A stretch of DNA of 64,000 nt from Oxynema aestuarii AP17 (GTDB taxonomy: Bacteria > Cyanobacteriota > Cyanobacteriia > Cyanobacteriales > Laspinemataceae), in assembly GCF_012295525.1 (NCBI RefSeq), contig NZ_CP051167.1, positions 62,001-126,000 on the forward strand, written 5' to 3'. A program made the position numbers and the translations under genes. Positions 18,562-19,734 of this stretch are shown here, piece by piece. The number at the start of each line of letters is the position of its first letter. Position 1 is the first letter of the stretch. The notes beneath the pieces are model-generated. The model had not been told where the DNA came from. It did no database searches and worked only from the letters and a program-made list of their open reading frames with translations.

Positions 18562-19120
18562 ATTACATTTTGGTCATTTTTGCCTGTTTTGCTACTTCGG
18601 GTCGGCGAGAAGAAAGCTTCGATCTCCTGACCCGATCTTCTTGTGAATTTTTACGATCGAAACTCTCGATCTTTGTCAATTTCTGCAAAGCGATCGCCCG
18701 TCTATCCCGCGATCGCTTATCGTAGAACTGAGGCGATCGATGGATCCGCAACTTCCTTCTGTTTGGCGATGTTGCCGTTTTTTTAACCCCTTTTTATCGG
18801 CGAGAGATCCTAGCGTCTCTTTCGATCGAGATCGGCGCCTCCCCTTCTCTGACAAGGGTTTGGGATCGGCGATCGCTCTATTCGCCGACTCCTAAAGCTC
18901 GCCACTCCCCCGCCTTAACTTTAAGAAAAATAAAGCACGCTGCAATGTAATCTATTCGCTTTTTCTTCATAAAGGTTTATGCTCTTGTCGATGATTTATA
19001 AGGTAAAGTTATGATAACGCCAATGTAAGGTTTTTGTAATTATTGTTGCATCTTATGTGTTGTTGAATCTGCTATTACCAGATAAGCTATGGTGTAAATA
19101 TAAAGGAAAAATTAAAGGTA
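18562..19120. other. Intergenic region downstream of glmS
   Basis: About 560 bp without a supported gene. The last 200 bp are AT-rich (18900-19110), with several possible -10 hexamers, and probably hold the promoter of the structured leader that begins near 19120. Confidence 0.45.
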
Positions 19121-19495
19121 CTAGACCTCGGGTTCTTCCAGTCTCCGAGGTCGGCGTCAAAGTAGACTGGAGATGGCCGCTCCAAGCTCCGGGTTTGGGT
19201 CAATTAACCCACTGTTGAGTCTTGGCAACGGCGATCGCGGGTGAGGGCTTGACTCTACCCCTTCCGGGTCGGAAGATCCCTCGAACGAGAACCGAAAACG
19301 AAGGGCTGAATCTTTCCCCAATTCCAGCCCTCTGTTAGGGAAACATCCATTTCCCCGACCGATACCCAGGCATCTCGATGCGCGTACCGTAGGGGAATCC
19401 TCCAGGTTTGGTGGTTCCTGGCCGCAAGGTATCCAAAATCACTATTTTGCTCCTCCCTTCTGCCGGATGGACATCCAAGAGGGTAACCGCAAAGG
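19121..19495 (+). ncRNA. Candidate structured RNA or leader with H-type pseudoknot
   Basis: Dense secondary structure lies directly before a small gene. Stem 1 is a perfect 8-bp pair GACCTCGG (19124-19131) with CCGAGGTC (19145-19152). Its loop contains TTCCAGTCT (19136-19144), which pairs with AGACTGGAG (19164-19172; eight Watson-Crick pairs plus a G-T), giving a classic H-type pseudoknot with loops of 4, 0 and 11 nt. More hairpins follow: TGGGT/ACCCA near 19195, CTTCC/GGAAG at 19261-19275, AGGGCTG/CAGCCCT at 19302-19331, and GGATG/CATCC just before the SD. I do not recognise it as tmRNA, RNase P RNA, SRP RNA or a known riboswitch. Confidence 0.45.
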
Positions 19496-19503
19496 AGGTT
19501 TTG

Positions 19504-19734
19504 ATGAACCCGTTAATGCTCCGTCAACTGTGGTCGTCGATTGAAAATTCTCAGGTGAATATTCTGTTGAGCCTCGACGACACGAGTTTGATTCAATGGT
19601 TGATCAAGCAGTTCAAGCAAGAGCAATCCCTGAATCAAGACGAAACCAACATGATCGACAATTACCTGAGAACGAAACTGTCATTGATTCGCGACATCGC
19701 CCAAGAACGGATCGGAACCGAAAGCATGGGCTAA
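19504..19734 (+). CDS. Conserved-looking small hypothetical protein (76 aa)
   Basis: A 76-residue soluble, probably helical protein (MNPLMLRQLWSSIENS..., LIQWLIKQFKQEQSLNQDE...). No catalytic motif is visible. I recall similar short proteins in other cyanobacteria but cannot name a function. The start is well supported: AAAGGAGG at 19491-19498 lies 5 nt before ATG 19504. The frame is open upstream to 19408, but that overlaps the structured leader. The long folded leader suggests post-transcriptional control. Confidence 0.7.
   Translation: MNPLMLRQLWSSIENSQVNILLSLDDTSLIQWLIKQFKQEQSLNQDETNMIDNYLRTKLSLIRDIAQERIGTESMG

Follow-up and report, generated by a model that had tools for sequence, protein, structure and literature searches.

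Downstream-peptide RNAs (PMC2864571) are structured leaders that, in cyanobacteria, stand before a short protein of unknown function. Here, we describe a long leader in front of a gene for a 76-residue protein, located in a 64,000-nt stretch of DNA (hereafter, the window), and compare it both with that class of RNA and with the leaders of the same gene in relatives. The window is of cyanobacterial origin and belongs to the Laspinema family, its nearest named relatives being Laspinema and related Oscillatoria and Phormidium strains, and the host genus is represented by a single genome in the comparison set. The gene is flanked by glmS (upstream) and by a glutathione S-transferase-like gene (downstream). 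Features of the locus are collected in Table 1.

Table 1. Features of the leader and its flanks, numbered from the first nucleotide of the window.
Feature	Position	Strand	Remarks
Conserved promoter-like block; TATGGT 19088-19093; upstream repeats near 19024-19059	19020..19120	+	nhmmer profile
Conserved 5' domain of the leader, only upstream of the 76-residue gene family	19110..19172	+	55 bits with covariance model R1, the window being among its seeds
S1, 5' strand (GACCTCGG)	19124..19131	+	pseudoknot stem; unaligned in relatives
S2, 5' strand (TTCCAGTCT)	19136..19144	+	pseudoknot stem; also from comparative alignment
S1, 3' strand (CCGAGGTC)	19145..19152	+	pseudoknot stem
S2, 3' strand (AGACTGGAG)	19164..19172	+	equivalent to the widespread AAGACC motif of relatives' leaders
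Leader middle without relatives, ~260 nt, approximate boundaries	19173..19433	+	no similar DNA found
Second, weaker H-type pseudoknot candidate	19302..19343	+	not significant: at least two candidates in 188 of 2000 shuffles
3' domain common to relatives' leaders; hairpin CCCTTC..AGAGGG, GGTAACCGC, SD AAGGAGG 19492-19498	19434..19503	+	leader-end profile
76-residue conserved protein, four predicted helices	19504..19734	+	AlphaFold mean pLDDT 89.9

Results

The 76-residue gene and its conserved upstream block

The gene family was found in 258 of the 389 genomes of the order that were searched, and the orthologues read are mostly 45-71% identical to one another. An earlier note on this DNA had assigned the gene a start codon and a Shine-Dalgarno sequence (SD), and both assignments are correct (ATG at 19504, AAGGAGG at 19492-19498). 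Searches of Pfam and NCBIfam placed the protein in no family, and a sequence search of the PDB yielded no relative. Although its AlphaFold model is a confident four-helix structure, the fold was uninformative as to function, with only small helical proteins retrieved by Foldseek (E of at least 2.1) and VIA-align (Z of at most 4.8).

In the host family and in many other families, the orthologues are preceded by a promoter-like block that ends in AATTAAG. A nhmmer profile of relatives' upstream regions, with the window itself among the seed sequences, matched the window with a score of 68.3 (E 1.6e-20), and transcription probably starts from this block. The leader of the window is the region between the block and the ATG. 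These two points lie 8-20 nt apart in several genera. Most of the genera with a clear block have 92-106 nt, two genera have 164 and 200 nt, and the window has 383 nt; in several families that retain the 76-residue gene, the leader is nearly absent. The block is conserved in relatives and the leader resembles theirs at its 5' and 3' ends, in agreement with the earlier description of the region as a leader of this gene. As judged by comparison of sequences, its position and its shared ends, with an unshared middle between them, identify it as such.

Within 19020-19060, and likewise in relatives (TTAAGTATTTT GTAACTATTGT TTCAACTTGTG), the promoter-like block carries repeats phased by ~11 bp, which suggests a candidate operator for an OmpR/PhoB-type response regulator. 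The published PhoB/SphR-type box is CTTAACCT (PMC1906773); the ~11 bp spacing fits an operator of this type but the repeat units match the box poorly, and the assignment remains a lead. Farther out, the related loci L002, L021, L024, L061 and L203 have a tRNA gene several hundred bases ahead of the orthologous gene, and CRISPR direct repeats (RF01343) occur near the orthologous gene at L015:2862-3188.

Shared ends and unshared middle of the leader

Similarity to relatives' leaders is confined to the first ~60 and the last ~70 nt of the window leader. A profile built from the final 68 nt of 56 leaders of relatives found its best match in the window at 19434-19502, a weak match (E 3.7e-4 when the leader was searched by itself and 0.12 for the window) to which the SD contributes part of the score. 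No terminator-like site was found on the + strand between leader and gene. Apart from short chance matches, the middle ~260 nt had no counterpart in the host's own genome, in 194 genomes of the order, in phages or in plasmids. When the whole leader was searched as DNA, it matched the nearest genera at the block end alone. Three accounts of the long leader were rejected: a multi-copy element (no copies found), kinship with phages or plasmids (no similarity found) and tandem copies of the ancestral leader (no convincing repeats). We also noticed a possible upstream open reading frame of 23 codons at 19173-19244, right after S2, with the sole SD-like GGAG abutting its ATG.

The leader of the same gene in L095 (genome G096) contains an inserted repeat of ~100 bp with TTACGCAAA / TTTGCGTAA inverted ends and 44 matches genome-wide. 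Since ~100 nt of this leader are a 44-copy repeat, leaders of the 76-residue gene can grow by insertion.

A strong H-type pseudoknot predicted at the 5' end

The sequence allows an H-type pseudoknot at 19124-19172, in which the stems S1 (8 bp) and S2 (9 bp, the last pair being U-G) interleave and the loops, 4, 0 and 11 nt long, are sterically feasible. The same stems and loops had been proposed in the earlier note, and our search recovered them at identical coordinates; S1 could be extended by one G-U pair into S2. When all H-type candidates on both strands of the window were ranked on the weaker stem's stacking energy, this pseudoknot came first (-17.0 kcal/mol). Of 2000 dinucleotide-shuffled versions of the leader, 4 contained an equally strong one, and at that rate we estimate that chance would give ~0.7 such pseudoknots over both strands of the whole window, which makes the structure notable, not extraordinary. 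It may form in the cell. A general pseudoknot in all relatives was rejected, the best candidates of other genera being mostly no better than those of shuffles.

Searches of the leader against Rfam, at the gathering threshold and at E<=10, returned chance matches only and no riboswitch, ribozyme or housekeeping RNA, ARAGORN gave no match, and the covariance model of the Downstream-peptide / glutamine-II riboswitch (RF01704) had no match at any reported threshold. This is in line with the earlier note, whose author had recognised no known riboswitch or housekeeping RNA here.

Comparative evidence on the two stems

The covariance model R1 of the 5' domain was seeded with five sequences, those of the window and of four relatives, which had been picked because they carry the helix. 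It found additional relatives, likewise ahead of the 76-residue gene (L013, L009, L095, L012 and L008, others more weakly), and no credible second copy of the domain in the host's own genome, where the next match had an E of 0.56. A helix GGUCU-19 nt-AGACC lies 30 nt past the AATTAA anchor in the window, L021 and L015, and the spacer is 18 nt in L008; by inspection, an S2-type helix is also present in L024 (spacer of 20 nt) and in L095 (spacer of 19 nt, AGAUC). Three genera, which belong to two families, thereby have S2 at the same place and with the 19-nt spacer, three more have variants, and the S2-type helix is absent from the genera of L002, L068 and L013.

When these five sequences are aligned, pairing holds in 84% of S2 cells and three of the nine pairs have changed on both sides, counts that overstate the support for S2 because the sequences were chosen for having the helix. 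One of its pairs shows a compensatory replacement (A-U vs. G-C), and the pattern is lost when the partner strand is slid. For S1, only 52% of cells are paired across these sequences, which are related at the level of genera, and the stem does not recur in relatives. Covariation in homologues, which the earlier note had looked to for both stems, gives S2 some support and S1 none in five sequences selected for the helix. Furthermore, leaders of several families have in common a motif, AAGACCAG.., that falls on the 3' strand of S2, so that part of the conservation of S2 has another cause. On these comparisons, the S2 helix is supported as real, but not proven.

Independently of the pseudoknot, the leaders of several families (for example those of L021, L061, L069 and L016) carry a recurring motif, AAGACCAGTT-TC--CC, which could be a site for an sRNA or a protein. 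A GUCU/AGAC pairing in L069 was discarded, as it breaks down in congeners. In the genus sampled most fully, with 21 leaders at 85% identity, changes in the consensus hairpin are one-sided only and none is compensatory. Together with the leader grown by insertion, these one-sided changes indicate that leader structure turns over quickly.

Ordinary nested folding of the leader

The minimum free energy (MFE) of the leader is ordinary, with z of 0.09, -0.45 and -0.69 against shuffles in three runs, and its paired fraction is 0.65, as compared with 0.50-0.59 in spacers and 0.60-0.64 in genes. Base pairing had been described as far denser than in adjacent spacers. This was not borne out: the upstream spacer at 18565-18945 has a z of -4.07, against -0.69 to 0.09 for the leader. 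That spacer, which follows glmS, is itself far more stable than its shuffles and has several GCGATCGC-type palindromes within it. As to the further hairpins of the earlier note, the leader has seven local hairpins of at least 6 bp vs. 3.2 in shuffles, none of 100 shuffles reaching seven, but parts of the gst and glmS coding regions likewise carry seven. An ordinary MFE and a hairpin count matched in neighbouring genes leave the claim of exceptional density unsupported.

Discussion

We give about an even chance to the reading that this is a 5' UTR elongated in a lineage-specific manner, with a 5' structure that is conserved in part, and predicted to act in cis on mRNA stability or translation. 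The start and end of the leader correspond to the ~100-nt leader of many related genera, and ~260 nt lie between them in this lineage only. At the 5' end, the long-range helix S2 would be ancestral and retained, as the comparisons support, and the local hairpin S1 may have grown inside it in this lineage to produce the H-type pseudoknot. The folded 5' end might shield the transcript and the SD-adjacent 3' hairpin might tune ribosome access; the leader would set the amount of the 76-residue protein in cis, without a dedicated small-molecule ligand. In favour of an elongated leader we count the related promoter-like block and the related 5' and 3' domains upstream of the same gene, the place and spacing of S2, its A-U vs. 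G-C change, the weaker pseudoknots in 1996 of 2000 shuffles and the insertion in L095. We count against it that S1 is not kept, that the hairpin in the 21 sequences is uncompensated, that the MFE is ordinary and that the seeds were selected for the helix.

It is plausible, though somewhat doubtful, that the leader is an ordinary, freely drifting 5' UTR whose pseudoknot arose by chance in a G+C-rich stretch prone to hairpins and serves no function. Free drift would accommodate the ordinary folding energy, the absence of S1 elsewhere and the turnover of leader sequence between genera, as well as the several families that keep the gene with nearly no leader, the mobile-repeat insertion tolerated by L095 and the ~0.7 pseudoknots expected in the two-strand window. 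However, the place and spacing of S2 are fixed in several genera, with one compensatory change, and conserved sequence blocks are found at both ends of the leader.

We regard as rather unlikely, and as compatible with an elongated leader, that a mobile element was inserted as the middle and persists there, whole or as a remnant, with folds of its own. Relatives' leaders join both flanking domains directly, and the 44-copy repeat of L095 shows such an event in a sister genome, but the middle has no second copy in its own genome, nothing similar in phages, plasmids or 194 genomes, and no clear terminal inverted repeats or target duplication.

An undescribed class of pseudoknotted cis-regulatory RNA that controls the conserved small protein, elaborated here to a ~380-nt multi-domain sensor, seems improbable. 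By analogy with the glutamine / Downstream-peptide RNAs (PMC2864571), for which the same arrangement of pseudoknot, long leader and small uncharacterised protein is reported, the small protein might be controlled by a ligand-sensing riboswitch of an undescribed class. We consider this very improbable, its support going no further than that resemblance: the leader has no Rfam match and no highly conserved core of the type seen in known riboswitches, and the element stands upstream of one gene family only and nowhere else in the genome. The leader is, moreover, missing in many orthologues, and the many relatives that have the gene with almost no leader make an essential riboswitch unlikely. A free-standing, stable small RNA or an RNA of housekeeping type (tmRNA, RNase P RNA or 6S RNA-like) is scarcely credible, since a length of ~380 nt, many hairpins and two pseudoknot candidates are set against the lack of any Rfam or ARAGORN match, no terminator-like site on the + strand before the gene, and a position and flanks that are those of a leader.

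The leader and the promoter-like block suggest that expression of the small protein, retained by most genomes of the order, is controlled. If the S2 helix is functional, it provides a handle on what the 76-residue protein responds to; if not, the locus is a clear example of fast turnover and lengthening of a leader before a conserved gene. A structured 5' UTR is a well-known kind of thing, while this leader is without an Rfam family and its gene without a Pfam or NCBIfam family.

Like RF01704 (PMC2864571), the window leader is a structured cyanobacterial 5' leader before a short uncharacterised protein; unlike RF01704, it is ~380 nt long, is linked to one gene family only and has a structure that is not conserved beyond a few genera. 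With the leaders of the same gene in Laspinema and others, it shares the promoter-like block, the 3' domain by the SD and, in some of them, the S2-type 5' domain, but those leaders are 92-106 nt long as opposed to 383 nt, and S1 and the middle 260 nt are found only in the window. Finally, like plain, ligand-free bacterial 5' UTRs, it folds in cis before the SD and varies among relatives, and it differs from plain structured 5' UTRs in having one unusually strong pseudoknot at its 5' end.
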